DNA of 41,123 nt from contig JAIPGD010000007.1 in NCBI GenBank assembly GCA_021736305.1, forward strand, positions 1-41,123, read 5' to 3'. Both the position numbers and the translations under genes were made by a program. The notes beneath the pieces are model-generated. The model saw only the letters and a list, made by a program, of their open reading frames with translations. It did not search any database and was not told the DNA's origin. Below are positions 2,836 to 21,975 of this stretch, one piece after another. The stretch comes from Candidatus Izemoplasma sp. Lineage in GTDB: Bacteria > Bacillota_I > Bacilli_A > Izemoplasmatales > Hujiaoplasmataceae. How positions within the stretch are numbered: the first letter of the stretch is position 1; the number at the start of each line of letters is the position of its first letter.

Positions 2836-3264
2836 TTAATTTAAATTGTCTAAAATCTCTAATATATCATCAGCGCCAACATATTTTTCAACATATTGGT
2901 TATCGCTAATATAAGCGAGTGTAGGTGTATATCTAAGATTAATACTAGGTTCTACTTGAATATCACGAGATATATCAAATAAAAACAAATGATCTTCTTC
3001 TAAATTAGATATAGTCGATAAAACATCATTTTTAATTGCAATACATGCTGAGCAAACTTCTGAATAATAGTAAATATAATAATCAGATTCAAGACGATTT
3101 AATTGATCATCAAAATTTTCTATCTGATAATAAATATAATCAGAATAAACATAATCATTATTGTTAGTATTCACATTAGTAGTACTAATACTACCATTAG
3201 TACAACCAACAACAAAAACAAATAAACCAATTGTTAATAAACTAAGAAACCTCTTCAAAATCAT
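2836..3264 (-). CDS. Thioredoxin-like lipoprotein
   Basis: A 142-residue exported lipoprotein with a thioredoxin-like domain. The N-terminus is a signal peptide (KR, then a hydrophobic run) ending in the lipobox VVGC, with Cys21 as the lipidation site. An Asn/Thr-rich linker follows to about residue 37. The redox motif CSAC is at 71-74 and a TPTL segment supplies the cis-proline at about residue 114. It is therefore predicted to act as a thiol-disulfide protein on the outer face of the membrane; whether it reduces, oxidises or isomerises is not readable. The ATG at 3264 sits 7 nt after AGAGG (3272-3276); an in-frame GTG at 3267 would be only 4 nt away. Its start overlaps the end of ribU by 23 bases, so the two are translated from one mRNA and both should respond to the FMN riboswitch. 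Confidence 0.78.
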   Translation of the reverse strand: MILKRFLSLLTIGLFVFVVGCTNGSISTTNVNTNNNDYVYSDYIYYQIENFDDQLNRLESDYYIYYYSEVCSACIAIKNDVLSTISNLEEDHLFLFDISRDIQVEPSINLRYTPTLAYISDNQYVEKYVGADDILEILDNLN

Positions 3265-3868
3265 CACTATCCTCTGCTTTTATCAGTGGTGAAATTCGTT
3301 TATATATTATCACAACAATTACACTCACTAATGTAGCTTTAACTAAATTAAATGGAACAACTGAAAAGACCATAAATGTAAATACGTTTGTTATAAAAGG
3401 AAAAATCATATTTCCTAGAGCAACAAAATCATCAACATGTGCTCCCATCATTAAAGCAAATACTGGCAATAAAACAAATGCATTTAATAACGCAGCCACA
3501 ATAGCCATTGTTAAACCACCAACCGCTAAACCAATAATTGCGCGCTTTTTAGTTTTCTTTTGTGCATAAATAATACTAGCTGGAACAACAAAAGCTAATC
3601 CCACTAAAAAGTTTGCTAATTCACCAACCAAGAAAGTACTAGTTGGTTTAATTGCGAGTTTAACAATAATCTTTAAACCCTCAATAATTATACCTGCAAC
3701 CGGACCATAACTAAATGCTCCTACTAAAACAGGGACCTCAGAGAAATCTACCCCATAAAAATCTGGAGCTAACCATGGAATCGGAAATTCAAGGACCATC
3801 AATATCCCTGATATTGTTCCTAATAAACTGATAACCACTAATCTTTTTAAACTCTTGTTGCGTTTCAT
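3242..3868 (-). CDS. ribU: Riboflavin ECF transporter substrate-binding (S) component RibU
   Basis: Integral membrane S-component that binds riboflavin and works with a shared energy-coupling module (EcfA/A'/T), which is not in this window. The 208-residue protein has about six hydrophobic segments and RibU features: GTISGILMVLEFPIPW near the N-terminus, PDFYGVDFSEVPVLVGAF after the first helix, then GEL.NF and the helix-rich C-terminal half. An FMN riboswitch directly upstream strongly supports riboflavin as substrate. A TTG at 3880 is in frame but is part of the ribosome-binding site; the true start is the ATG at 3868, 5 nt after GGAGG (3874-3878). The end of ribU overlaps the lipoprotein gene. 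Acidic C-terminal tail (EDSDDFEE). Confidence 0.92.
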   Translation of the reverse strand: MKRNKSLKRLVVISLLGTISGILMVLEFPIPWLAPDFYGVDFSEVPVLVGAFSYGPVAGIIIEGLKIIVKLAIKPTSTFLVGELANFLVGLAFVVPASIIYAQKKTKKRAIIGLAVGGLTMAIVAALLNAFVLLPVFALMMGAHVDDFVALGNMIFPFITNVFTFMVFSVVPFNLVKATLVSVIVVIIYKRISPLIKAEDSDDFEEVS

Positions 3869-3878
3869 TTTTTCCTCC

Positions 3879-3904
3879 AAAAAAAATACCTAATTTAAGG
3901 TATT
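3879..3904 (-). terminator. Riboswitch-controlled terminator ahead of ribU
   Basis: On the minus strand a 7-bp stem (3898-3904 with 3885-3891) and 6-nt loop runs into eight T residues (3879-3886), immediately followed by the GGAGG of ribU. It is the expected expression platform of the FMN aptamer just upstream. Ligand binding should favour termination. Confidence 0.82.
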
Positions 3905-3922
3905 CTTCAGGTTGAAAGATGT

Positions 3923-4027
3923 AACTTCTTCCATCCAGACTATACTGTCGGTTTAGGAGTTTCACCCAATCAGCTTGCGCTCGCGGACTATCACCGCCGG
4001 TAGGGAATTTCGCCCTGCCCTGAAGTT
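3923..4027 (-). ncRNA. FMN riboswitch (RFN element) aptamer
   Basis: The minus strand contains the near-invariant RFN blocks in order: AGGGCAGGGCGAAATTCCC, the ACCGGCGGTGATAGTCCGCG block, GGGTGAAACTCC, and ACCGACAGTATAGTCTGGATG. The closing helix P1 is AACTTC (4022-4027) with GAAGTT (3923-3928). It binds flavin mononucleotide and, with the downstream terminator, should switch off ribU and the lipoprotein gene when FMN is plentiful. Confidence 0.96.
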
Positions 4028-4049
4028 CATATATTTTTAAAACAATAAT

Positions 4050-4084: not shown

Positions 4085-4711
4085 TTATAAATTTTTTGCA
4101 ATAGCCCTAACTATTGATGCTTCTAAAGCATCTATTTTTAGTGGCAAACCAACAAAATAAACTAAGTTATTTAGTGCATTCAAATTAGTTAAATTTTCAA
4201 TTAAATAAATATCACTATTTAAAAGATCTTTATGCATAAGTAATTTATCTTTGCTATCATATTCGTAACTTGGTAAATCAGAACAAATTAGTTTAATATC
4301 ATTACTAACAAGAAAATCTAAAACGCTCATTTCAAAAACTGGAACCTGGTAATATTTCGGTGTATTAAAGTGTTTTCCATGATCAAAATTAAAAATGATA
4401 ATAGATTGTTTGTTCGATAATTTATTATATGAGTTAATAATATCTATTGTTTTGATTACATTATTTATTGGGCTAATTTTTAAGACATTAGCTTTCCCAA
4501 TAAATCTTTGAAAACTAGGGGTATCTGAAACATTAAGACAATGTTTCTTAAAATCAATGTGAGTACCTAAATGCATATTTAAATTTATTTTTGATAAATT
4601 ATATCCATTATTATCAATGGTTTTATCCCATTCTATTTTCAAAGAATGATCTCCTGGATAAGGCAAATAATCCTGATTGATTTTAACAGTTAAATCAATC
4701 CATTTTTCCAT
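4085..4711 (-). CDS. Cyclase family protein (kynurenine formamidase-like metal hydrolase)
   Basis: A 208-residue member of the cyclase/KynB fold, a cytosolic metal-dependent amidohydrolase family. Visible marks are the N-terminal WIDLTVKI strand, YPGD (18-21) and the metal-binding string HLGTHIDFKKH, giving His47, His51, Asp53 and His57. The usual Pro after Asp-x is replaced by Lys. The length matches KynB (about 205-220). No tryptophan-degradation gene is nearby, so kynurenine formamidase activity is not claimed. The ATG at 4711 follows AGGTG by 6 nt and lies 9 bp after the glgP stop, which makes it the last gene of the glycogen cluster. Its substrate is unknown; the link with glycogen may be simple cotranscription. 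Confidence 0.78.
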   Translation of the reverse strand: MEKWIDLTVKINQDYLPYPGDHSLKIEWDKTIDNNGYNLSKINLNMHLGTHIDFKKHCLNVSDTPSFQRFIGKANVLKISPINNVIKTIDIINSYNKLSNKQSIIIFNFDHGKHFNTPKYYQVPVFEMSVLDFLVSNDIKLICSDLPSYEYDSKDKLLMHKDLLNSDIYLIENLTNLNALNNLVYFVGLPLKIDALEASIVRAIAKNL

Positions 4712-4720
4712 TCAGAACAC

Positions 4721-7123
4721 CTACTTTATTTTTTTTATATTCCAAATTTTTCGAGCATAATCTTTGATTGATCTATCTGATGAAAAAACTCCACTTTTAG
4801 CGATATTCTCAATCGCAATTTTTGCCCAATCATATTGATTTTTATACGCTTTATTTATAGCTTCATTTGCTAATCGATATTCATGAAAATCTTTTAAAAC
4901 AAAATATTGGTCTTTATATACTAAATTATCAAAAATTTCTCTAAACTCATTTCTTTCAACTGATTTAAAATATCCATTTACTAATTGATCTAATAATTTC
5001 TTTATAATTGGATCAGTTTCATATAGTGTTCTAGGATTGTAGTTTTGTTTAACTGTTAGATCATTTACTTCATCAGCACTTAAACCAAAGATATAAATTG
5101 CTTCTTTACTAACCAACTCATTTATTTCAACATTTGCTCCATCTAATGTTCCTAAAGTTATTGCTCCATTCATCATAAATTTCATATTTCCTGTTCCGCT
5201 AGCTTCTTTAGAAGCTGTAGATATCTGTTCAGAAATATCACAAGCCGGCATAATCATTTCGGCATAACTTACATTATAATTTTCAACAAATACTACTTTC
5301 AAGTATTCATTAGTATCAGGGTCATTATTAACTTTTTTTGCTATAGTATTTATTAGTTTAATAATTTTTTTGGCAAAATGATAACTACCTGCGGCTTTTG
5401 CACCAAAAATATAAGTGTGCGGATAATAATTGTTTTTAAATTCTGATGAGGTCTTTAATTGATTATATACATAAAGAATATGTAAAGCATTCATTAGCTG
5501 TCTTTTGTATTCATGAAGTCTTTTTACCTGAATATCAAAAATAGAATCAGTATTTATTTCTAGTTTCTGTTCTTGATAAATTCTATTAGCTAATGCTTGT
5601 TTTTTTATTTTCTTAATTTTTAAGAATTCTAATTGTGAATTTTTATCATCTTTATATTCTAATAATTTATTCAATTCACTAGGATTAGTTTTAAACCCTT
5701 CTCCAATTCGCTTTTCAATAAATGAAGTTAATTCGGGATTTGAATGTAATAACCATCTTCTATGAGTAATACCATTAGTTATATTAACAAATTTTTCAGG
5801 ATAAAGCTCGTTAAAATCTTTCATTTCAATATTTTTCAAAATATTTGTATGAAGTTTTGCGACGCCATTCACCGAATAAGAACTTATAATACATAGATGA
5901 GCCATTCTTACTTGATTATGATTAATAACTCTTAACTTGTTTATTAAATCAACTCCCTTATTTTCTCTTGCTAATTTTTCAACAAAGCGTCTATCTATCT
6001 CTTCAACAATTTGAAAAATACGAGGTAACAACGGTTTAATAATATCTATTGACCATTTTTCCAAAGCTTCTGCCAGGATAGTATGGTTTGTATATGCAAA
6101 AGTTGTAGATGTAATTTCCCATGCTTTGTCCCATGAAAACTTTTCTTCATCTATAAGAATTCGAATTAATTCGGGAATCAACAGCGCAGGATGAGTATCA
6201 TTAATATGAATTACATTCTTAGCTGCGAAATTTTTTAATGTTCCATATTTTTCTTTATGTTTTCTTATAATACTTTTAAGTCCAGCTGCAGATAAGAAAT
6301 ATTGTTGTTTTAAACGTAAGGTTTTTCCTTCAGGATTACTATCATCAGGATATAAAAAACCTGATATTTGTTCTAATTCACTTTCATATTCAAATGGAGA
6401 CTTATTTTCAGGATATCTTTTATCTGGTTCTGCATTCCAAATTCTTAATTTATTAACAAATTCATTATTATCTCCAATAATAGGAATGTCATATGGAACT
6501 GCTCTAATATACTCATCAGGAATATAAGTCATTTTATTGTTTTTATAACTTACTTCTCCATAAAACGGTATACTTTCAGCTTCTTCAGTTTTTCTTACTT
6601 CCCAAACATAACCATCGCTAAGCCAGTTGTCAGGTCTTTCTTCTTGATAACCATTTTTTATTGTTTGTTTAAATAGACCATAACGATAGCGAATACAATT
6701 TCCTGATCCTGGATACTTTAAGGCCGCTAAAGAATCTAAAAAGCAAGCCGCTAATCGACCTAACCCACCATTTCCTAAACCTGGATCTGATTCGTAATTT
6801 TCAACTTCGTTTAAATCAAAGCCTAACTCATCAAAACCATCTTTAGTAATATCTCTAATACCTAAACTAATAAGATTATTTGTTATTAATCTCCCTAACA
6901 AAAATTCCATTGAAAAATAGTGGACTTGTTTTGCTTCGTTCTTCTCTATTGCTAATTTAGAATCTATCCATGCTTCAGCTAATTCTTCTTTTACTAACAT
7001 ACCTAATACATGATATCTTTCTCTAATTGTTGAATCTTTTATATTCTTAAAAAACGTTTTTCTTAAACGATTTTTAAATGTCTTTTTGAATTGTTCTACA
7101 GATGTAAAAATTTCATTTTTCAT
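4721..7123 (-). CDS. glgP: Glycogen/maltodextrin phosphorylase
   Basis: PLP-dependent GT35 enzyme that releases glucose-1-phosphate from the non-reducing ends of alpha-1,4-glucans. The 800-residue length is normal for bacterial GlgP. It shows GNGGLGRLAACFLDS near residue 117, the HINDTHPAL segment mid-protein, KRLHEYKRQ, and the PLP loop EASGTGNMKFMMNG with the Schiff-base lysine at about 648. The ATG at 7123 lies 9 nt after a GGAG site; the gene starts 19 bp after the glgD-glgA stop and ends in TAG. Its product glucose-1-P can be converted to glucose-6-P by the mutase at the left end of the window. No debranching enzyme is visible in the window. Confidence 0.97.
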   Translation of the reverse strand: MKNEIFTSVEQFKKTFKNRLRKTFFKNIKDSTIRERYHVLGMLVKEELAEAWIDSKLAIEKNEAKQVHYFSMEFLLGRLITNNLISLGIRDITKDGFDELGFDLNEVENYESDPGLGNGGLGRLAACFLDSLAALKYPGSGNCIRYRYGLFKQTIKNGYQEERPDNWLSDGYVWEVRKTEEAESIPFYGEVSYKNNKMTYIPDEYIRAVPYDIPIIGDNNEFVNKLRIWNAEPDKRYPENKSPFEYESELEQISGFLYPDDSNPEGKTLRLKQQYFLSAAGLKSIIRKHKEKYGTLKNFAAKNVIHINDTHPALLIPELIRILIDEEKFSWDKAWEITSTTFAYTNHTILAEALEKWSIDIIKPLLPRIFQIVEEIDRRFVEKLARENKGVDLINKLRVINHNQVRMAHLCIISSYSVNGVAKLHTNILKNIEMKDFNELYPEKFVNITNGITHRRWLLHSNPELTSFIEKRIGEGFKTNPSELNKLLEYKDDKNSQLEFLKIKKIKKQALANRIYQEQKLEINTDSIFDIQVKRLHEYKRQLMNALHILYVYNQLKTSSEFKNNYYPHTYIFGAKAAGSYHFAKKIIKLINTIAKKVNNDPDTNEYLKVVFVENYNVSYAEMIMPACDISEQISTASKEASGTGNMKFMMNGAITLGTLDGANVEINELVSKEAIYIFGLSADEVNDLTVKQNYNPRTLYETDPIIKKLLDQLVNGYFKSVERNEFREIFDNLVYKDQYFVLKDFHEYRLANEAINKAYKNQYDWAKIAIENIAKSGVFSSDRSIKDYARKIWNIKKIK

Positions 7124-7142: not shown

Positions 7143-9569
7143 TTATTGATTTTGAATAATTTTTTCGTATAGTTCTATATATTTTTGTGCAGAATCTCTT
7201 ATAGTAAACCTTGAATTCATAGCATTTATAATTAGTTGTTTCCAATCCGGTGAACTTTCCATATAAATAGCAAAAGCATGTTTAATTTGAAAAACTAAAT
7301 CACGAGAATCAAAATTATAAAATTTAAATCCGTTACCTCGCTTACTTGATAAATCAAAATGTTCAACGGTATCATTCAATCCCCCTGTTTGTCTCACTAA
7401 CGGAACTGTACCATATTTTAACGCAATCATTTGCCCTAAGCCACAAGGCTCATACCTAGAAGGCATTAAAAACAAATCAGCCCCAGCATATATATAATTA
7501 GGGTTTGTTGCATCATAAGTTAAATTAGCGCTTACCTGGTCAGGATACTTTTTAGCTAAATCTTGTATATCTTGTAAATATTTTTCATCACCAGTGCCTA
7601 AAATGACAAATTGAATTTCTTGGTTTTTTAAAACTTCTTCCATAGAAGGAATAATAATATCAAAACCTTTTTGTTCAACAATTCTTGTTACCATACCGAT
7701 TACAAACTTATCTTTATCAATTGTCAATCCTAAGCGTTCTTGTAAATCCAGTTTATTAACATCTTTAGCTTTAAATACATTAACTAAATCATAAGGCATT
7801 TTAATCTCTAAATCATTTTTTGGATTAATTTCTTTATCTATCCCATTTAAAATCCCATAAAAATCTCGGCTTCTTCTATTAATAGCTTCCACAAGATTTT
7901 TTGAATAAAACTCATAACTTAACTCATCTTTATAGGTCTCGGATACCGTTGATAATTTATCAGCTAAATGGATGCCTGTTTCTAAGAAATTTATATAATT
8001 AGGTCGAATAAAACTATAACTATTTTGTAAATTTAATACATTAATTAAATCATTATTAAATTTACCTTGATATTCAATATTATGAATAGTCAAAAGTGTT
8101 TTTATATCAATTCCCTTTTCTTTCAATAATAAAGGAATTAAACTTGCATGCCAATCATGTATATGAATAATACTTGGATAAGCTTCTAAGCTTTCTAAAA
8201 ATTCAATCACAGCTAAAGCAAAAAAAGCAAATCTCAAACCATCATCTTCATAGCCATACAATTTATCCCTTTCAAAGAATTGATAAGTTTCAATAAAATA
8301 ATATACAGTATTTGTATTACTCAAACTATAAAGTGCAGCTTTATAATCTTCATTTGCAAAATTAATTGTTTTGTCACATATATGTTTTAGTAATAATTTA
8401 TATTTATCTTTAATCTTAGGATACAGTGGCAATATTACTTGAGACTTATTACCCAACTTAGAATATTCTTCGGCGTTCGCTCCTACAACATCTGCTAAAC
8501 CGCCAGTTTTAATAAATGGATTAACTTCAGCTGAAACTTGTAAAATTGACAAACTCTTTTCTGAAGTAACTATTTGTTTTTTTTCAGATACAAAAAGTTT
8601 ATCTACATCACCTAAAACTTGAGAATCTTTTAATACTTTAGTTTCTTTATCTAAAATAGAATATTGAACGAAAGCGCCTTCTTCTACTAAACCGTGATTC
8701 ATAATAACTGAATTAACTACCTTAGCACCTTTTTCTATTCTTGCTTTTCGGCCAATTACTGAATTAATAACCTCTCCATCAATTATTGCTCCAGAAGCCA
8801 CAATTGAATTTTTAATATTTGCTTCTTTCCCATAACGAGTTGTTGCTGACATAGTCTCTTTAGAAAATATTGGACGTTCATCATTAAAAACAGTATCTCT
8901 AACAGATTTAACTAATAATTGCATATTTGCATGGAATAAATCTTTAGCTGAATTAATTAAAAATGATGGTACATTAATCTTAATAGTTTGTTTTATTAAA
9001 CTAGTACTAAAATCAAAAACATCAGTTAAATTACGAAATTGAATTTGATCATAATGATTAATAAATTCGAGTAATTTACTTTTTTTTATAATATATGTTT
9101 TAAGTCTTTCGTTGTCCTCTGCAATAACAGCGCTAATATCAACCTTTGCGTCAATATGGTCGTTTAGCAAAAGATTATAATCATAATTCATTATAAGATT
9201 AGCCGGAGTAACAATAGCATATTCTTGGGATGAACGATTAAAATATTCAATATGTTCATACATTCTTTGAAAACTAACTTCATTATCAAATGTACTTGAT
9301 ATTACTTTAGGAGGAAGAATAAATATCCCATCTCTTCTACGATTTAAATCCCAGCGACTTCCAGAACCAATTTGATCTGACAAAGAACGATAATTACCAT
9401 AAGGGAAAATCGCCACATTAAATATTTTTGAATTTTTACAATTTGATAAAGTGAAATCAATTAAACGAAACTTAGCCGCATAAGGCATAGCGCCAGGAAC
9501 TCTATGTCTAGTAAGATGAGAGAAACTGCCGTGATTTGTTGCATCAATTATCACAAATAAATCATTCAT
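7143..9569 (-). CDS. GlgD-GlgA fusion: ADP-glucose pyrophosphorylase-like subunit joined to glycogen synthase
   Basis: One 808-residue ORF with two full domains. Residues 1-about 330 are GlgD-like: a nucleotidyltransferase fold with AAKFRLIDFTLSNC, SGSRWDLNRRRDGIFILPP, then hexapeptide left-handed beta-helix repeats at about 245-325. The catalytic GGxGTRL loop of GlgC is replaced by DATNHGSFSHL, as in non-catalytic GlgD subunits. After a short linker (about 325-340), residues 341-808 are a complete GT5 starch/glycogen synthase with KTGGLADVVG (354-363), a DWHASLIP segment, VTRIVEQKG and the C-terminal SRYEPCGLGQM motif. GlgD and GlgA are normally separate neighbouring genes. The ATG at 9569 overlaps the glgC stop by 8 bases, with AGGTG 6 nt upstream. 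It should extend glucan from ADP-glucose, and the N-terminal domain may pair with GlgC (inference). Confidence 0.93.
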   Translation of the reverse strand: MNDLFVIIDATNHGSFSHLTRHRVPGAMPYAAKFRLIDFTLSNCKNSKIFNVAIFPYGNYRSLSDQIGSGSRWDLNRRRDGIFILPPKVISSTFDNEVSFQRMYEHIEYFNRSSQEYAIVTPANLIMNYDYNLLLNDHIDAKVDISAVIAEDNERLKTYIIKKSKLLEFINHYDQIQFRNLTDVFDFSTSLIKQTIKINVPSFLINSAKDLFHANMQLLVKSVRDTVFNDERPIFSKETMSATTRYGKEANIKNSIVASGAIIDGEVINSVIGRKARIEKGAKVVNSVIMNHGLVEEGAFVQYSILDKETKVLKDSQVLGDVDKLFVSEKKQIVTSEKSLSILQVSAEVNPFIKTGGLADVVGANAEEYSKLGNKSQVILPLYPKIKDKYKLLLKHICDKTINFANEDYKAALYSLSNTNTVYYFIETYQFFERDKLYGYEDDGLRFAFFALAVIEFLESLEAYPSIIHIHDWHASLIPLLLKEKGIDIKTLLTIHNIEYQGKFNNDLINVLNLQNSYSFIRPNYINFLETGIHLADKLSTVSETYKDELSYEFYSKNLVEAINRRSRDFYGILNGIDKEINPKNDLEIKMPYDLVNVFKAKDVNKLDLQERLGLTIDKDKFVIGMVTRIVEQKGFDIIIPSMEEVLKNQEIQFVILGTGDEKYLQDIQDLAKKYPDQVSANLTYDATNPNYIYAGADLFLMPSRYEPCGLGQMIALKYGTVPLVRQTGGLNDTVEHFDLSSKRGNGFKFYNFDSRDLVFQIKHAFAIYMESSPDWKQLIINAMNSRFTIRDSAQKYIELYEKIIQNQ

Positions 9570-10686
9570 TTATCTCACCTACTTCATATAAGTTATTTTC
9601 AGTGATCAAAGTAATTTTTTCGTTTTCAGACACATAATTTTTAGGCAAAATAACGTTCTCATTAACAATAGTTTTTTCTAGTTTAACGTTTTCATTTATA
9701 ATTACATTTGAAAGTATACAACTATCTTTTATTGAACTTCCTTTTTTAACAATAACCTTATAAGCAATAACCGAATGGTTTATTTCCCCATCGATTTGAC
9801 ATCCATCAGCAATTACACAATTTTTTGCATCACCATTATTTAAAATTACATGTGGTTCAAGATTTAACGAACGTGAGAAAACAGGTAAATTTTTAGAAGA
9901 ATTTAATTCCAAAAAATTATTATCATTTAACAAATCCATATTAGCGTTATATAAGGATTCTATCGTTCCAACATCGCGCCAATAACTTTTAAATTCATAA
10001 TTTAATATCTTTTTATTGTTTTTCAATGCTTGGGGGATAATATCATTCCCAAAGTCATACATATCTTCTTGAGTGAATAATAGTTCTTCTAAAACTTTTG
10101 TCTTAAATATATAAATTCCCATCGACACTAAATTACTTGTCGGATTATTAGGTTTTTCTTTGAAACTTTTCACAAAGTTATTTTCATCTGTTTCAATAAT
10201 ACCAAATCTATTTATATCTTCAGATAATTTTTTTGAAGCGATAGTTATATCACTATTAACTTTTTCCATTTCTTTTAGCATTGGTAAATAATCCATTTTA
10301 TAAATATGATCCCCTGGTAAAATCAAAACATATTCTGCTTGATAATTTTTTATAAAATCAAAAAACTGTTTAACAGCGTGTCCAGTGCCTTTTTGCCAAA
10401 GAACATTATCTTTTTTTAAAAAAGGAGTTAAAAAGCGTATTCCACCATCTACATAATCCAAATCCCAAGATGAACCATTACCAATATAATTTATCAATTC
10501 TTGAGGTTCATATTGAGTAATAATTCCGCAAACATCGATATTACTATTAGATAGGTTACTGAGTGTAAAATCAATTAAACGATATTTCCCGCCATATGAA
10601 ACCGCAGGTTTAGCTTTATCATTAGTAATATCACCTAATCTTGTGCCTTTACCCCCTACTAGAATCATTGAAATAATCTTTTTCAT
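9562..10686 (-). CDS. glgC: Glucose-1-phosphate adenylyltransferase (ADP-glucose pyrophosphorylase)
   Basis: Makes ADP-glucose from ATP and glucose-1-P, the committed step of glycogen synthesis. The 374-residue cytosolic protein has the nucleotide loop LVGGKGTRLG, KPAVSYGGKYRLIDF, LPGDHIYKMDY, FKEKP and YWRDVGTIESLYNAN, followed by C-terminal beta-helix repeats. The usual RGTADAV segment reads KGTGHAV, a variant in a substrate-site loop. The ATG at 10686 lies 7 nt after AGGGGAG; an in-frame TTG at 10689 is too close to that site. It begins 4 bp after the glgB stop and overlaps the glgD-glgA start. The adjoining GlgD-type domain suggests a GlgC/GlgD partnership as in Bacillus-type operons, here with one partner tethered to the synthase. 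Confidence 0.95.
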   Translation of the reverse strand: MKKIISMILVGGKGTRLGDITNDKAKPAVSYGGKYRLIDFTLSNLSNSNIDVCGIITQYEPQELINYIGNGSSWDLDYVDGGIRFLTPFLKKDNVLWQKGTGHAVKQFFDFIKNYQAEYVLILPGDHIYKMDYLPMLKEMEKVNSDITIASKKLSEDINRFGIIETDENNFVKSFKEKPNNPTSNLVSMGIYIFKTKVLEELLFTQEDMYDFGNDIIPQALKNNKKILNYEFKSYWRDVGTIESLYNANMDLLNDNNFLELNSSKNLPVFSRSLNLEPHVILNNGDAKNCVIADGCQIDGEINHSVIAYKVIVKKGSSIKDSCILSNVIINENVKLEKTIVNENVILPKNYVSENEKITLITENNLYEVGEINE

Positions 10687-10690
10687 CAAC

Positions 10691-12547
10691 TCACTCCCCT
10701 AATTTAAATATCTGCACAGCTAAAGGCGCAATTTTTATTTTAATTGCTTGTAAATAGCCATGTGATGTTTGATTACTTGAATGAATTAATTCATTATATA
10801 TATTTGAACCTGAATATTTAGATAAATCAGAATTTAAGATTTCTTTGTATAAGCCTTTTTTAGGAACACCAATTAGATAATCTTCATACACCATTGGCGT
10901 TAAGTTAAGTACAACAACACAAAACCCTCCTGATTTATCATAACGAAGATAAGAAAATATACTTTGATTAAGATTATCACTATCAATCCATTTAAAACCT
11001 TCCGGATAATAATCACATTCATAAAGGCAAGGATTTCCATTATATGTCTTTAACAAGTCTTTAACAAAAATGTTTGCTTTTTGATGCATAGGATATTCAT
11101 ATAAGTGCCAATCTAATTCTTCTTTATCTTTCCATTCATGCATATGGGCAAATTCGCCACCCATAAAAATCAGTTTTTTCCCGGGATGTGTAAACTGAAA
11201 GCCTAGTAAAGCTCTATAATTGGCAAATTTCTGCCAATAATCTCCGGGCATTTTTTCTACAAGAGAACGTTTGCCATGAACGACTTCGTCATGAGATAAT
11301 GGCAAAATAAACTTTTCAGAATAATGATATGCCATAGCAAAATTAATTAAGTTGTGATGATATTTGCGATAAATTGGATCCTTACTGAAATAATTTAAAC
11401 TGTCATTCATCCAACCCATATTCCACTTAAAATCAAACCCAACTCCACCCTCATCAACAGATTTTGTTAAATTTGCAAAAGTCGAAGAATCCTCTGCAAA
11501 TAATAATACAGAATTGTCATTCGATTTAATTGAATAAGATAATTGTTTCAAAAATTCCAAAGCACCTTCATTTACACCTTTTGTTTGATCCCCTAAATAA
11601 TATAAAATGTTTGATACAGCATCAATTCTGAATCCATCTATATGAAAATATTCCATCCAAAATCTAGCATTAGAAATTAAAAAACTTCGCACAATTCCTT
11701 TTCCTAAATTCAGATTAATTGTACCCCAAATTTCATTAACACGAATATCTTCTGACTCATATTCATATAAAAAACTGCCATCATATTTATACAAACCATG
11801 GTCATCTTTACTAATATGCGAAGGAACCCAATCCAATATTACACCAATATTTTCTTGGTGTAATGAATCAATTAAATAACACAAATCTTTTGGAACACCA
11901 TATCTTGAGGTAGCTGAAAAATATCCCGTTGCCTGATACCCCCAAGATTCATCTAATGGATGTTCTGCTAAAGGCATGATTTCAACATGAGTAAACCCAT
12001 GATCCTTCAAATAAGGAACTAAATGGTCTACTAACTCATTATATTTATTAAAATTACCATCTGGTTTTTTCTTCCAAGAACCTAAGTGTAGTTCGTATAT
12101 AGCCATATTAGTTTCTAAGAAGTTAGTGTTTTTTCGGTTTTTTAAGTAATCTGTATCGTTCCAATCATAACCATCTAAATCATAAACTTTAGATGCTGTT
12201 TCAGATCTATAGTCAGAAAAAAAGGCATATGGATCGGCTTTAAATATTGTATCATTGTCACTTGTCACAAAACAATATTTATATCTTGCCCATTCGTTAA
12301 TACCTTCTATAAATAAAGAATAAACCCCAGATTCATCAATTTTTTTCATGACGTGAGTTCTAGAGTCCCAGTTATTAAATTCGCCAACAACAGACGCTAT
12401 TTTAGCGTTTGGTGCATATGTTGTAAAAGTAACACCCTTAACGCTACCAGATTTATCTTTTACAATATGGGCTCCAAAATGCTTATAAGCTTGATGGAGT
12501 TTTCCAGAATGAAATAGATAGAGAGTTGATTCATCAATTTTCACCAT
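10691..12547 (-). CDS. glgB: 1,4-alpha-glucan branching enzyme (GH13)
   Basis: Introduces alpha-1,6 branches into glycogen. The 618-residue protein has an N-terminal CBM48-type beta-sandwich (about 20-120, with GEFNNWD), then the GH13 barrel: WGYQATGYF (202-210), DGFRIDAV with nucleophile Asp309, FAED with acid/base Glu352, and LSHDEVVHGK with Asp420, followed by a C-terminal beta domain. The length is typical of Firmicute GlgB, which lacks the long N-terminal extension of E. coli GlgB. The ATG at 12547 follows GAAGGAG by 6 nt and overlaps the end of recX by 14 bases, so translation is probably coupled to the preceding housekeeping genes. Stop codon TGA. Confidence 0.97.
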   Translation of the reverse strand: MVKIDESTLYLFHSGKLHQAYKHFGAHIVKDKSGSVKGVTFTTYAPNAKIASVVGEFNNWDSRTHVMKKIDESGVYSLFIEGINEWARYKYCFVTSDNDTIFKADPYAFFSDYRSETASKVYDLDGYDWNDTDYLKNRKNTNFLETNMAIYELHLGSWKKKPDGNFNKYNELVDHLVPYLKDHGFTHVEIMPLAEHPLDESWGYQATGYFSATSRYGVPKDLCYLIDSLHQENIGVILDWVPSHISKDDHGLYKYDGSFLYEYESEDIRVNEIWGTINLNLGKGIVRSFLISNARFWMEYFHIDGFRIDAVSNILYYLGDQTKGVNEGALEFLKQLSYSIKSNDNSVLLFAEDSSTFANLTKSVDEGGVGFDFKWNMGWMNDSLNYFSKDPIYRKYHHNLINFAMAYHYSEKFILPLSHDEVVHGKRSLVEKMPGDYWQKFANYRALLGFQFTHPGKKLIFMGGEFAHMHEWKDKEELDWHLYEYPMHQKANIFVKDLLKTYNGNPCLYECDYYPEGFKWIDSDNLNQSIFSYLRYDKSGGFCVVVLNLTPMVYEDYLIGVPKKGLYKEILNSDLSKYSGSNIYNELIHSSNQTSHGYLQAIKIKIAPLAVQIFKLGE

Positions 12548-13346
12548 ACTTGTCTCCTTCTAAAATCTTTAATATTTTTCCATATTGATAACCTTTATTT
12601 AAAAGTTTAGGAACTACATAATTTTTAAAAGATGATTTTTGTTTTGATTTCTTGTATTTAGTGTAATATTTTTCGATATCTTTATCTAATGCTTTTTCTT
12701 CATTAACAAATTCATTAATTAAATCAATTTGATCATTAATTACAGTTTGAACAAGATTAAAATCATAACCCTTGTTTACTATATATGATTTAATTAACTG
12801 AATTGTTTTCTTAAAAGGTTTTGATTTAATTGACTTAGCTTTCTTTTCGACTAATTTAACTATGTTACGATAAATCAAATCTGCCTTATAATCATTTATA
12901 TGTTTGTTAATTAATGTTGGGCTTATACCTTTTCGCCTTAACTCATAGATGATTTTTTTGGGCCCAATTAAACGATAATGTGAATATTCATAAATGTAAT
13001 TTCTAACATATAAATCATCATTCAATAATTGGATTTCTTCTAATTTATTAAGGTAGTAATGTTTAGCTTTTTCATCTATATCAAACTTATCTAAATAGTT
13101 TTTTGCCTCATGGGCTGTTCTTGGTTTATAATTCGCGTAATATAGTAGCTTTTGATAATATTTATCACGATTAATGCTTTCAACTAAATTTTTGTATTCT
13201 TTTTCTGTTAATTCTTTATCTTTTAATAATCTGAAATCAAGAATAATATCTTCAGAAACAGTTAAGCTAATTTTTTCTCCTGCCTTTTCTATAACTACTT
13301 TATATTTATTCTTGTTTTTTTCAATCGATAAGACTTTATAGTTCAT
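12534..13346 (-). CDS. recX: RecX family regulatory protein
   Basis: A 270-residue RecX protein, a cytosolic modulator that binds RecA filaments and inhibits recombinase activity. Three-helix RecX repeats are seen in order: YYANYKPRTAHEAKNYL, then LNDDLYVRNYIYEYSHYRLIGPKKIIYELRRKGIS, then weaker repeats with NKGYDFNLVQTVI and LLNKGYQYGKILKIL. An N-terminal beta-rich extension (about 1-60) is like that of Bacillus RecX, and the length agrees with Bacillus members (about 260). The ATG at 13346 overlaps the end of prfB by 11 bases and the gene ends in TGA inside glgB. RecA itself is not in the window. Confidence 0.88.
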   Translation of the reverse strand: MNYKVLSIEKNKNKYKVVIEKAGEKISLTVSEDIILDFRLLKDKELTEKEYKNLVESINRDKYYQKLLYYANYKPRTAHEAKNYLDKFDIDEKAKHYYLNKLEEIQLLNDDLYVRNYIYEYSHYRLIGPKKIIYELRRKGISPTLINKHINDYKADLIYRNIVKLVEKKAKSIKSKPFKKTIQLIKSYIVNKGYDFNLVQTVINDQIDLINEFVNEEKALDKDIEKYYTKYKKSKQKSSFKNYVVPKLLNKGYQYGKILKILEGDKYGEN

Positions 13347-17635: not shown

Positions 17636-18025
17636 CTAAAATATATCTTGATATAATAACTCCTTCCGCTCTAAAGAGAACAAAAAAGTCTTAGTGTAAT
17701 TAGAACTTATTATCTTTAAATCGATAATATTATTGAGTAAATTATCATCTAAAAATACAACCAAACCATAATTATTTTTTTGATTTATAAGTTCTCTATA
17801 GATAATATCTAAATACTTATCTAAGATATCACTTTGACTTAGGTTCAATTTTATATTTTCATATAAATAATAATAGTGAATTTCACCTAAATCAATAGGT
17901 ATAATCTCAAAATTTAGTTTAGGTTCATATTTTATTTTACAATTTTCACAGATCGAATCAAAATTAAATAGGTTTTCAAAACTTTCTTCTTCAATATAGA
18001 AACTACTACACAATCTACATAGCAT
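17636..18025 (-). CDS. Short ComFC-like protein: zinc-ribbon N-terminus without the phosphoribosyltransferase domain
   Basis: A 129-residue protein encoded directly after comFA. The N-terminus has four cysteines (3, 6, 26, 29) in the CxxC...CxxC arrangement and spacing of ComFC. The rest (about 35-129) has no recognisable PRTase loop or the RGFNQ-type region that ComFC (about 230-240 residues) carries. It is either a truncated, diverged ComFC or a protein that kept only the ribbon. There is no internal frameshift that would restore the missing part: only 80 bp separate its stop from hpf. The ATG at 18025 lies 7 nt after AAGGAG and overlaps the end of comFA by 11 bases. A competence role is inferred from position only. 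Confidence 0.6.
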   Translation of the reverse strand: MLCRLCSSFYIEEESFENLFNFDSICENCKIKYEPKLNFEIIPIDLGEIHYYYLYENIKLNLSQSDILDKYLDIIYRELINQKNNYGLVVFLDDNLLNNIIDLKIISSNYTKTFLFSLERKELLYQDIF

Positions 18026-19241
18026 CAAATTTCTCCTTATTCATTCTTTTTAACACTTTTTTCGCTTCAATCATTGCTTTTGTTTTAAATCTAGAAAAAA
18101 AGATTAATTCTCCCTTTGGGTAATTTCTATCTCTACCAACTCTTCCTGATATTTGCACTAAAACTTCTTTTGAAAAAATCCGATTATCAGATTCAATAAC
18201 AAAAACATTTAACTTTTTAAATGTAATTCCTCTTTCTAACAAAGTAGTTGTTAACAAAATATTGAAGTCATCGTTTTCATAAGCTTTTAATATTAACTTT
18301 TTGTACTTAGTCTTACTCGAAATAATCCGAGAATTTATATTATTATCATTTAAATACTTATGAAATTTCTTCAAAAGACTAATACTAGGAACAAATACCA
18401 TTAGTCTCTTTTTATATTTTTGATAACTAATTATATGGGTAATAATTTTGATAGAAAAAACATTTGAATATTTAACAAATTTGGGAATCACTAAATCATA
18501 ATTATGATAACGACTTGGTATTAGAAAGTACTTCACCTTTTTAGTATTAATCAATTTTTCTTCGGATTCTCCCAATGTTGCACTAATGAATATCTTTGTA
18601 GATAGATTCTTACTAGATTTATTTATTAAACGGCTTAAAAATTTGTTGTTTACAAATGGATAAGCATCAACTTCGTCAATAATCATAAGATCAAATTCTT
18701 CATAGAATTTTATTAATTGATGAGGCGTTGATAAGAAAATATCAGCGCTTTCAACAAATTCTTGATTTTGATATAAACAACATATACTAGTTTTGGGAAA
18801 ATATTCTATAAACCTTTTATAAACTTGTTTAATTATTTCAACTCGAGGAATAATAAAACAAATTGATTCATTATTACATAGTGCTTGATATATTGTTTTC
18901 AAACACATTTCAGTTTTTCCTGCCCCACACACTGCGTGTAAAAATCCTGATTCTTTCAAGTTATAACAATTGTAAATAAAGTTTTCGCCTAAGACTTGTA
19001 ATTTTGATAAATTAAATTTTAAGTTTAATTTATGTTTTCTTTTAATTCTAGACCTTGGTTTTCTTTTTAAATAATGATTGCTAGTTACTGTTTGATAGTT
19101 ATAACAATCTTCACAATACAATACATTATTATGATTAACCTTTAAATTATCTCCTAAACATCGATTACAAATCTCATCTATTGCTTTTACAGTATTACTA
19201 CTAGGACTTCTAACTACTCTTTCAATCATTCTATGACCCAT
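18015..19241 (-). CDS. comFA: ComFA-like DNA-uptake ATPase/helicase
   Basis: Superfamily 2 DEAD-box ATPase thought to help pull single-stranded DNA into the cell during competence. The 408-residue protein has an N-terminal four-cysteine zinc ribbon (Cys25, 28, 43, 46), Walker A CGAGKT (105-110), DEVD box (189-192), a SAT motif (FISATLGE) and the C-terminal motif QISGRVGRD. Length is slightly below B. subtilis ComFA (about 460). The ATG at 19241 has no clear ribosome-binding site; a second in-frame ATG at 19229 is possible. The gene lies 65 bp after leuS and precedes the ComFC-like gene and hpf, the classical arrangement. No late competence pilus or channel gene is in the window, so natural transformation cannot be concluded. 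Confidence 0.88.
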   Translation of the reverse strand: MGHRMIERVVRSPSSNTVKAIDEICNRCLGDNLKVNHNNVLYCEDCYNYQTVTSNHYLKRKPRSRIKRKHKLNLKFNLSKLQVLGENFIYNCYNLKESGFLHAVCGAGKTEMCLKTIYQALCNNESICFIIPRVEIIKQVYKRFIEYFPKTSICCLYQNQEFVESADIFLSTPHQLIKFYEEFDLMIIDEVDAYPFVNNKFLSRLINKSSKNLSTKIFISATLGESEEKLINTKKVKYFLIPSRYHNYDLVIPKFVKYSNVFSIKIITHIISYQKYKKRLMVFVPSISLLKKFHKYLNDNNINSRIISSKTKYKKLILKAYENDDFNILLTTTLLERGITFKKLNVFVIESDNRIFSKEVLVQISGRVGRDRNYPKGELIFFSRFKTKAMIEAKKVLKRMNKEKFDAM

Positions 19242-19306: not shown

Positions 19307-21730
19307 CTATTTTACAACTATGTTTACTAATTTGTTCGGAACTACAATTGTTTTAATAACATTTTTACCTTCAATATAACCTTGAATCTTTTCACTATCA
19401 AAAGCAATTTCTTTTAATTTTTCTTTTGACAAATTATTCTCTACTGTTACTTTATCTCTAACCTTACCATTAATACTTAACACAAGTTCAATTTCTTCTC
19501 TAATAAGTTTCTTCTCATCATAACTTGGATATGGTTCAAAAACCAATAATTCTTTATTACCAAGTTTTTGCCATAATTCCTCGGCCATATGGGGAGCTAT
19601 TGGATTCAGTATTTTTAAAAGCACTTCATAATCCGCTCTTGTAATCTCTGATTCCTTATTATATAAATTAACTAATTCCATCATCTTAGCAATAGCTGTG
19701 TTAAATTTTATATTTTCAATATCCTCATCAACACCTTTAATAGTTAAATGAATATCTCTTTCTAAAGATTTTGAATAAGTGCTTTTAGTATTAACTTTAG
19801 GAAACATTCTCCAGATTTTATCTAAAAATCTTCTTGCACCTTTAACACCATCTTCATTCCATGGTGTACTCATTTCATAATCGCTTAAAAATAGTACAAA
19901 TGTCCTTAAAGTATCAGCGCCATATTCATCAATAATCTCCATAGGGTTTACAACATTCCCTCTTGATTTCGACATTTTTTCATTATCAGAACCAAGTATC
20001 ATCCCTTGAGCTGTTCGTTTTTTATATGGCTCTTTATTAGGAACTACACCTATATCATATAAAAACTGATTCCAAAAACGCGAGTAAATTAGATGTCTAG
20101 TAACATGTTCCATTCCACCATTATACCAATCTACTTTACCCCAATAATCTAATTTTTCTTTACTTGCAATTTCATTATTGTTGTTAGGATCCATGTATCT
20201 TAAAAAATACCAACTTGATCCTGCCCATTGCGGCATTGTATCTGTTTCTCTTTTAGCATCCTTACCACATTTAGGACATTTACAATTAACAAATTCCTCA
20301 ATGTTTGCTAGCGGGGATTCTCCTGTACTTGAAGGATTGAATTTTTCTATATAAGGTAATTCTACTGGCAAATCCTCATAAGGAACTGGAACGATTCCGC
20401 ATTGATTACAATAGATAATTGGAATTGGTTCTCCCCAATACCTTTGTCGGTTAAATGCCCAATCCTTCATTCTAAACTGCGTTGCTTTTTTACCAATATT
20501 TTCTTTTTCAATAACTTCAGTTATTTTTTTAATTGCTTTTTCGACATTTAATCCATTAATTAATGGAGAATTAATTAGTTCACCAGAATCAGTATTCACA
20601 TATGCTTCTTCTTCAATATTTCCGCCTTTAATAACTTCTATAATATCTAAATCATACTTCTTAGCAAACTCATAATCTCTTGTGTCATGAGCCGGAACCG
20701 CCATAATTGCTCCCGTACCATAAGTAATCATTACATAATCTGAAATAAAAATTGGAATCTCAGTCTTACTAATTGGATTAATTGCTGTTAAGCCTTCAAC
20801 TCTAACACCGGTTTTATCTTTTGCAAGTTCTACTCTTTCAAATTCAGTTTTAAGTTTTGCTTGCTCTTGATAATCTCTAATTTTATCAAAATTTATGATT
20901 CTTGATTTAAATTCTTCGATATATGGATGTTCTGGGGCAATCACCATAAAAGTTGCTCCATAGATTGTATCTGGTCTTGTAGTAAACACTTCCAAAGTCT
21001 TATCACTATCTTTTATCGGAAAATGTAAGTTAGCTCCAACTGATCTACCTATCCATTTTTCCTGTTCGGATTTTATTCTTGCATTTGATTCTAAATCATC
21101 TAAACCCTCTAATAAACTATTAGCATAATTCGTGATTTTTAAAAACCAAACATCTTTTTCCATTTGTACTACTTCAGATCCACAGCGGTCACATTTCCCG
21201 CCTTGTGATTCTTCATTTGATAAAATCACTTGACAACTTGGACAATAATTTACATATGCTTTATCTTTAAAAACTAAATTGTGTTCATATAGCTTTAAGA
21301 AAATCCATTGGGTCCAACGATAATACTTTGGGTCTGTTGTATCAACGATTCGAGAAAAATCAAATGAAATTCCTGCAGATTTTAATTGTTTTTTAAAAAT
21401 CTTAATATTATCATCAGTAATTTTTCTTGGGTGTATTTGTGTTTGAATTGCGTAATTTTCTGTTGGCAAACCAAAAGCATCAAAGCCAATCGGATACAAT
21501 ACATTATATCCTTCCATCCTTCTTTTTCTCGAAATTACTTCTAAAGATAAATACGCTCTAATGTGGCCAATATGCATTCCTACTCCACTTGGATAAGGAA
21601 ATTCTACTAAACTATAGTATTTATTTTTCTTTGAAAAATCCTCAGCTTCAAAATATTTGTTGTTATACCAAATGTCTTGCCATTTTTTCTCGATTTTTTC
21701 ATGTTCAAAACTAGGAATAAACTCACTCAT
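19307..21730 (-). CDS. leuS: Leucyl-tRNA synthetase
   Basis: Class I synthetase that charges tRNA-Leu. The 807-residue length is typical of bacterial LeuRS. It shows the HIGH motif (53-56, within PYPSGVGMHIGH), a zinc ribbon CPSC...CDRC, the CP1 editing domain with TTRPDTIYG, a second cysteine cluster CPKCGKDA, KMSKS (585-589), the anticodon-binding helices and a small C-terminal domain. The ATG at 21730 follows AAAGGAG by 8 nt. It is controlled by the T-box leader upstream and ends at a strong palindromic terminator, so it forms a single-gene unit. Confidence 0.98.
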   Translation of the reverse strand: MSEFIPSFEHEKIEKKWQDIWYNNKYFEAEDFSKKNKYYSLVEFPYPSGVGMHIGHIRAYLSLEVISRKRRMEGYNVLYPIGFDAFGLPTENYAIQTQIHPRKITDDNIKIFKKQLKSAGISFDFSRIVDTTDPKYYRWTQWIFLKLYEHNLVFKDKAYVNYCPSCQVILSNEESQGGKCDRCGSEVVQMEKDVWFLKITNYANSLLEGLDDLESNARIKSEQEKWIGRSVGANLHFPIKDSDKTLEVFTTRPDTIYGATFMVIAPEHPYIEEFKSRIINFDKIRDYQEQAKLKTEFERVELAKDKTGVRVEGLTAINPISKTEIPIFISDYVMITYGTGAIMAVPAHDTRDYEFAKKYDLDIIEVIKGGNIEEEAYVNTDSGELINSPLINGLNVEKAIKKITEVIEKENIGKKATQFRMKDWAFNRQRYWGEPIPIIYCNQCGIVPVPYEDLPVELPYIEKFNPSSTGESPLANIEEFVNCKCPKCGKDAKRETDTMPQWAGSSWYFLRYMDPNNNNEIASKEKLDYWGKVDWYNGGMEHVTRHLIYSRFWNQFLYDIGVVPNKEPYKKRTAQGMILGSDNEKMSKSRGNVVNPMEIIDEYGADTLRTFVLFLSDYEMSTPWNEDGVKGARRFLDKIWRMFPKVNTKSTYSKSLERDIHLTIKGVDEDIENIKFNTAIAKMMELVNLYNKESEITRADYEVLLKILNPIAPHMAEELWQKLGNKELLVFEPYPSYDEKKLIREEIELVLSINGKVRDKVTVENNLSKEKLKEIAFDSEKIQGYIEGKNVIKTIVVPNKLVNIVVK

Positions 21731-21751: not shown

Positions 21752-21778
21752 AAAAAATCGCCCTATAAAAGGACGATT
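21752..21778 (-). terminator. T-box-controlled terminator of leuS
   Basis: Stem AATCGTCC/GGGCGATT (21771-21778 with 21756-21763, one G-U pair), 7-nt loop, then a T run (21752-21757) on the minus strand. It sits right after the T-box motif and before the leuS ribosome-binding site. Confidence 0.88.
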
Positions 21779-21783
21779 GTAAT

Positions 21784-21957
21784 CGCGGTACCACCTTAGT
21801 TCTGGAATAATCCAGCTCTCAATCCATAACGCCGGTAAGCGTGTTTTACTTACGTGCTTCGCAAAACCTACTCCATAGACTAATTCAAACAGATTATTTG
21901 TTAGTTTACACCAGCCACTAACTCTCTAAAAAATAACTACTGCTTTACTCTTTCTAT
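21784..21957 (-). ncRNA. T-box leader (tRNA-Leu sensing) of leuS
   Basis: The conserved T-box sequence AAGGTGGTACCGCG is at 21784-21797; its TGGT bulge (21790-21793) can pair with an ACCA-type tRNA 3' end, as tRNA-Leu has discriminator A. Stem I closes with ATAGA (21953-21957) and TCTAT (21875-21879). An AGTA S-turn strand (21946-21949) faces GAA (21884-21886), which places the specifier codon at 21881-21883, TTA (Leu). The distal AGAGAG and GGTG elements are at 21922-21927 and nearby. Uncharged tRNA-Leu should stabilise the antiterminator and allow leuS expression. Confidence 0.93.
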
Positions 21958-21975
21958 TTCCTTGTATTTAGTGAT

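Follow-up and report, generated by a model that had tools for sequence, protein, structure and literature searches.

The control point of glycogen synthesis is ADP-glucose pyrophosphorylase (AGPase), and the purpose of its inactive subunit GlgD is understood only in part. In Firmicutes GlgD forms mixed tetramers with the catalytic subunit GlgC and alters GlgC kinetics, and active GlgC/GlgD heterotetramers are known from Geobacillus stearothermophilus and Ruminococcus albus (PMC9093745). GlgC homotetramers are also active in Firmicutes, and in G. stearothermophilus GlgD increases the efficiency of GlgC with glucose 1-phosphate only about 3-fold (PMC9093745). In the glgBCDAP operons of Bacillales, GlgD (341-352 aa) and the glycogen synthase GlgA (about 475 aa) are separate chains encoded by overlapping genes. 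Several glycogen-pathway enzymes joined in one chain have been reviewed, i.e. TreS-Mak, MalQ-GlgB of Neisseria suica and GlgA-GlgB of Waddliaceae/Criblamydiaceae (PMC11046441); in the available parts of this 2024 review of prokaryotic alpha-glucan enzymes none of the fusions pairs an ADP-glucose pyrophosphorylase with a glycogen synthase, and neither a GlgD-GlgA fusion nor GlgD itself is mentioned. In maize endosperm, a non-covalent complex of about 670 kDa that contains SSIII, SSIIa, BEIIa, BEIIb, PPDK, and AGPase (PMC9501056) physically ties ADP-glucose production to starch synthase.

The window analyzed here, a 41,123-nucleotide stretch of a Candidatus Izemoplasma sp. contig, carries on its minus strand the operon recX-glgB-glgC-glgDA-glgP followed by a gene encoding a PF04199 cyclase, and the genes overlap or almost touch (Table 1). 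The glgDA gene, whose strand the original prediction did not give, is a single ORF of 808 open codons, whereas the plus-strand translation of the same region is riddled with stops. The cluster glgB-glgC-glgDA-glgP given in the original prediction was confirmed by profile matches, and its Bacillus-type order was borne out by the sister lineages, which keep separate, adjacent glgD and glgA genes in matching order. The operon resembles glgBCDAP of Bacillales in genes and order and differs from it in that GlgD and GlgA are one chain. At the other loci with sufficient flanking sequence, glgC is located immediately upstream and glgP immediately downstream of the fusion gene.

Table 1. Features of the glycogen operon within the window
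Feature	Coordinates	Strand	Evidence and remarks
recX-like gene	12534-13346	minus	overlaps glgB; also a neighbour in other Izemoplasmatales and Haloplasma
glgB, glycogen branching enzyme	10691-12547	minus	NF003811, 783 bits, above cutoff
glgC, catalytic ADP-glucose pyrophosphorylase	9562-10689	minus	PF00483, 199 bits; overlaps glgDA by 8 nt
glgDA, 808-aa GlgD-GlgA fusion protein	7143-9569	minus	single ORF
GlgD-type non-catalytic ADP-glucose pyrophosphorylase domain, residues 1-338	8556-9569	minus	TIGR02092 best family; tree; AF2 model
GlgA domain (GT5 glycogen synthase, ADP-glucose type), residues 339-808 and stop codon	7143-8555	minus	TIGR02095
glgP, glycogen phosphorylase	4721-7123	minus	PF00343, 997 bits; TIGR02093, 1071 bits
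PF04199 cyclase gene	4085-4711	minus	TIGR03035 arylformamidase-like, below cutoff; follows glgP

Some further features of the region were observed. In Izemoplasmatales and Haloplasma alike (L028-L038, L046-L053, L066-L083), the glycogen operon begins with a recX gene that overlaps or abuts glgB (window 12534-12547), an odd yet conserved association between a regulator of recombination and genes for glycogen metabolism. The cyclase gene behind glgP is restricted to the window's own family (L046-L053) and was not seen at the f3 loci. An FMN riboswitch (3919-4031; Rfam RF00050, 110.9 bits) lies upstream of a gene (3242-3880) whose product, a small membrane protein, resembles a riboflavin ECF transporter subunit, and a T-box leader (21766-21971; RF00230, 147 bits) precedes a leucyl-tRNA synthetase-like gene of 807 aa (19307-21730). 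The region 17636-19241 contains two competence ComF-like genes, a DEAD-type helicase and its small partner, in this reduced genome.

The two halves of GlgDA were assigned with Pfam and NCBIfam profiles and with AF2 models. A GlgD domain of about residues 1-333, with matches to the NTP_transferase and GlgC/GlgD hexapeptide families over residues 6-323, is followed after a near-zero linker by a complete GT5 glycogen synthase at residues 341-806, which matches the GlgA family TIGR02095 at model positions 2-477 of 477 with 465 bits (cutoff 328). When the N-terminal domain was searched alone, the GlgD family TIGR02092 was the top match (218 bits, compared with 151 bits for the highest-scoring GlgC model); this score lies below the curated cutoff of 236.6 but still marks the best family, which is also the best one for the fused orthologues L040 of family f14 (318 bits) and L036 of family f10 (291 bits), both above the cutoff. 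The model of the GlgD domain (pLDDT 91.4, pTM 0.89) shows the AGPase fold, a pyrophosphorylase domain plus a left-handed beta-helix, and matches the E. coli enzyme 5l6s (E 8.5e-19, TMq 0.81). In AGPases, the beta-helix makes oligomer contacts. The GlgA half was also modelled confidently, its nearest structure being E. coli glycogen synthase 2qzs (TMt 0.91). In the model of whole GlgDA (mean pLDDT 93.6, pTM 0.64) each domain is sure and their mutual orientation is not.

The catalytic residues were then compared in an alignment of 38 fused sequences from about 34 distinct genomes (four named loci are repeats). The GGxGxR motif, the catalytic Asp, the FxEKP motif with the glucose 1-phosphate-binding Lys, and the Asp of WxDVGT are missing in all 38 fused GlgD domains, whereas GGxGxR, the GDH Asp, FxEKP, and WxDVGT are intact in the 14 GlgC sequences checked, that of the window included. 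The fused GlgD domain is thus not a working pyrophosphorylase, and a bifunctional pyrophosphorylase-synthase was ruled out. In the GlgA half of the window, the KTGGL, HDWH, and TGGL motifs as well as K354, H474, R629, K634, and E707 (EPCG) are present; the K, R, K, and E sites are kept in 38 of 38 fusions and the His of HDWH in 35. These data agree with the original prediction of a non-catalytic GlgD-type domain joined to a full GT5 synthase. The fused domain shares with TIGR02092 GlgDs their fold, operon position, loss of catalytic residues, and place in the tree, and departs from them in a C terminus that runs on into GlgA and, in the window, in the score below cutoff. The dN/dS values, estimated by the Nei-Gojobori method against four congeneric genomes with synonymous sites partly saturated, were 0.12-0.17 for the GlgD domain, 0.07-0.17 for GlgA, and 0.09-0.18 for GlgC. 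The inactive half, with values as low as those of its neighbours, is hence under constraint, and at the sequence level both halves of the fusion are under purifying selection.

An uninterrupted fusion was found in 52 of the 57 Izemoplasmatales genomes of a class-wide sample, with identities of 43-83%, when an ORF crossing the joint was counted and partial contigs were accepted if the match crossed residue 340. The same two-domain order, which the original prediction had proposed to look for in other proteins, spans three Izemoplasmatales families, the Haloplasmataceae (f10; Haloplasma G097), and a further family, f14 (G071, G082, G092, G100, G108, and G116). Among the matches listed, the named fusion loci belong mostly to Candidatus Izimaplasma/Izemoplasmatales, together with MAGs labelled Mollicutes, Tenericutes or Bacillales. 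In contrast, none of 299 other Bacillota genomes, with up to three candidates scored per genome, yielded a stop-free match spanning GlgD and GlgA; every spanning match had a stop. Because the stop-free fusion recurs in dozens of independent assemblies, including the single-contig genomes G001 (73% identity) and G004 (71%), sequencing error is excluded, and an assembly artefact or frameshift was ruled out. The internal stop flagged in G004, G009, and G013 is the terminal stop codon, and these ORFs are intact. The original prediction knew of no description of the fusion, and none was found in the open-access literature searched either; annotation of single proteins likely exists. GlgDA consists of known parts in a new, fixed arrangement of single origin.

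This single origin is shown by two trees. In a GlgD/GlgC tree of 76 rows, GlgD and the fused set split from GlgC at 100/100, the fused GlgD domains form one clade (100/99), and short GlgDs that occur unfused in Bacillus, Planococcus, and G124 are their sister group (97/99 for the joint clade). In agreement with this topology, the fused GlgA domains occupy one side of a branch with support 98 in the GlgA tree. Since the fused domains group together in both trees, the fusion arose once. An independent origin in Haloplasma was ruled out, as Haloplasma falls inside the single fused clade.

The short unfused GlgDs (340-352 aa) and all the fused ones lack a glucose 1-phosphate-binding segment of about 35 residues, whereas the long GlgDs of Paenibacillus and Clostridia (368-376 aa) retain a degenerate version of this FxEKP-carrying GlgC segment. 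Accordingly, the spacing between the two flanking motifs is 65-67 residues in short and fused GlgDs versus 96-106. The presence of the segment is a clean structural marker that divides GlgD into two types, the short one being that of Bacillus/Planococcaceae (L085, L086, L088, L091, L092, L114). The deletion is not peculiar to the fusion, being common to unfused Bacillus/Planococcus GlgDs, and because these short sisters already lack the segment, the deletion preceded the fusion.

Regarding the route of the fusion, the original prediction that glgD and glgA were joined by loss of the intervening stop holds in part. That the two neighbours fused is supported by their separate, adjacent counterparts in sister lineages; stop loss alone is not, because the glgD stop and the glgA start of Bacillus and Planococcus share 4 nt but are read in different frames (L085, L086, L091), so that either a 1-nt indel would be needed as well or an ancestor in which the genes abutted in frame. 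The latter layout is found within a fused family in the f14 genome G124 (L042, 7420-9900), which has a separate short glgD and glgA abutting in frame. The GlgD of G124 falls outside the fused clade, among Planococcus-type GlgDs, and its GlgC also groups with other lineages, which suggests from the sequences that its operon was replaced by transfer. The placement of its GlgD does not support a view of G124 as the direct ancestor of the fused gene, or as a descendant in which that gene was split.

No stand-alone glgD was found in the genome of the window, but contig C76 (L006) carries an unfused glgA2 (8495-9913, 472 aa) and glgC2 (9926-11161, 411 aa) with intact motifs. The pair lies some 2.6 kb upstream of a gene (L006 13807-16431) resembling that for pyruvate phosphate dikinase. 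An unfused glgA2-glgC2 pair is also present in most relatives. The fusion is thus not the sole route but runs alongside an unfused GlgC2-GlgA2 one, and two parallel ADP-glucose routes coexist in a genome of 1.5 Mb. A Haloplasma MAG (G542; contig C70, 3530-5646) has an extra glgC-glgD pair without an adjacent glgA, with the fused gene on another contig.

Taken together, these results show that glgDA encodes a fixed fusion of an inactive GlgD subunit with GlgA, and make it probable that the GlgD half pairs with GlgC, so that the synthase is borne by a heteromeric pyrophosphorylase. The product of glgC is the likely partner. By analogy with other Firmicutes GlgC/GlgD, the GlgD half would assemble with GlgC, encoded just upstream, into a mixed tetramer, and each GlgDA chain would hang a glycogen synthase on the beta-helix end, so that ADP-glucose would arise next to its consuming enzyme, with both activities produced in a fixed ratio. 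Complex formation between GlgC and GlgDA, and with it the recruitment of GlgC to the synthase that the original prediction proposed, is inferred from this analogy, as would be any substrate hand-over; ADP-glucose might be channelled directly, but the model does not require it. The complex is favoured by retention of the fusion across families, its single origin, the constant upstream position of glgC in well-flanked loci, an intact GlgC and an intact GlgA half next to an inactive GlgD half, the lack of a separate glgD, the low dN/dS, the absence of a clear ribosome-binding site at the junction, and the presence of the beta-helix. Against it stand the unsettled orientation of the domains (pTM 0.64), the second route through glgA2-glgC2, and the approximately 3-fold GlgD effect in G. 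stearothermophilus.

The conservation of a GlgD half that has lost both its active site and its glucose 1-phosphate segment would also be expected if this half no longer bound GlgC and instead regulated the attached synthase in cis, serving as a domain for effector binding or folding, with GlgC as a homotetramer, a form active in Firmicutes (PMC9093745). We regard such a role as rather unlikely, since the next upstream gene is always glgC and the closest unfused relatives are GlgDs of the usual operonic kind, which are known to pair with GlgC.

A chance joining of operon neighbours into two independent domains, with fixed 1:1 stoichiometry as its sole effect, appears improbable. The gene order predisposes to such an event, both domains retain separate folds, and the near-zero linker and uncertain orientation (pTM 0.64) fit it too. 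However, no re-separation was seen within the fused clade, the GlgD of the only unfused case in a fused family, G124, comes from outside this clade, and Izemoplasmatales conserve the joint SEKKQIV, yet stability alone is compatible with neutrality. In the window, the very short, conserved joint ..FVSEKKQIVTSEK closes the GlgD domain after the end of the left-handed beta-helix; the conserved pattern at the end of the GlgD helix in Izemoplasmatales is (F/Y)(V/I)(S/T)(E/Q)K.Q.V, and GlgA begins at most about 7 residues after the conserved GlgD end.

A Shine-Dalgarno-like site precedes the N-terminal start of the fusion gene in nearly all of the 38 sequences, whereas at the joint 37 of the 38 genes show none before any start codon and the remaining gene has a weak AGGA, which makes separate translation of GlgA unlikely. 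That the fusion is an artefact of assembly or sequencing, or that free GlgA arises mainly through internal initiation within the fused ORF, is hardly credible, since nothing was found in its favour apart from the draft state of the contig, and the recurrence in independent assemblies and the missing site at the junction speak against it.

The broader proposal, in which the GlgC-GlgDA tetramer with its own synthases is a conserved glycogen-building complex that couples the making and use of ADP-glucose physically and stoichiometrically, perhaps with hand-over and cross-regulation, and in which one fusion is ancestral to the Izemoplasmatales and Haloplasma genes, stands at about even chances. 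Like the maize complex, the proposed assembly would tie ADP-glucose production to its user, with the difference that the link in GlgDA is covalent and runs via an inactive subunit. An old and conserved GlgD-GlgA fusion is strong genomic ("Rosetta stone") evidence of contact between GlgD and the synthase, from which it can be predicted that the unfused GlgC/GlgD and GlgA of Bacillus may also meet in the cell. GlgDA provides a ready-made construct for tests of ADP-glucose coupling or channelling in bacteria, as a counterpart of the cereal AGPase-starch synthase complexes. For the carriers of the fusion, free-living relatives of mycoplasmas, it suggests that these steps of glycogen building, the making and the use of ADP-glucose, are held in one complex.
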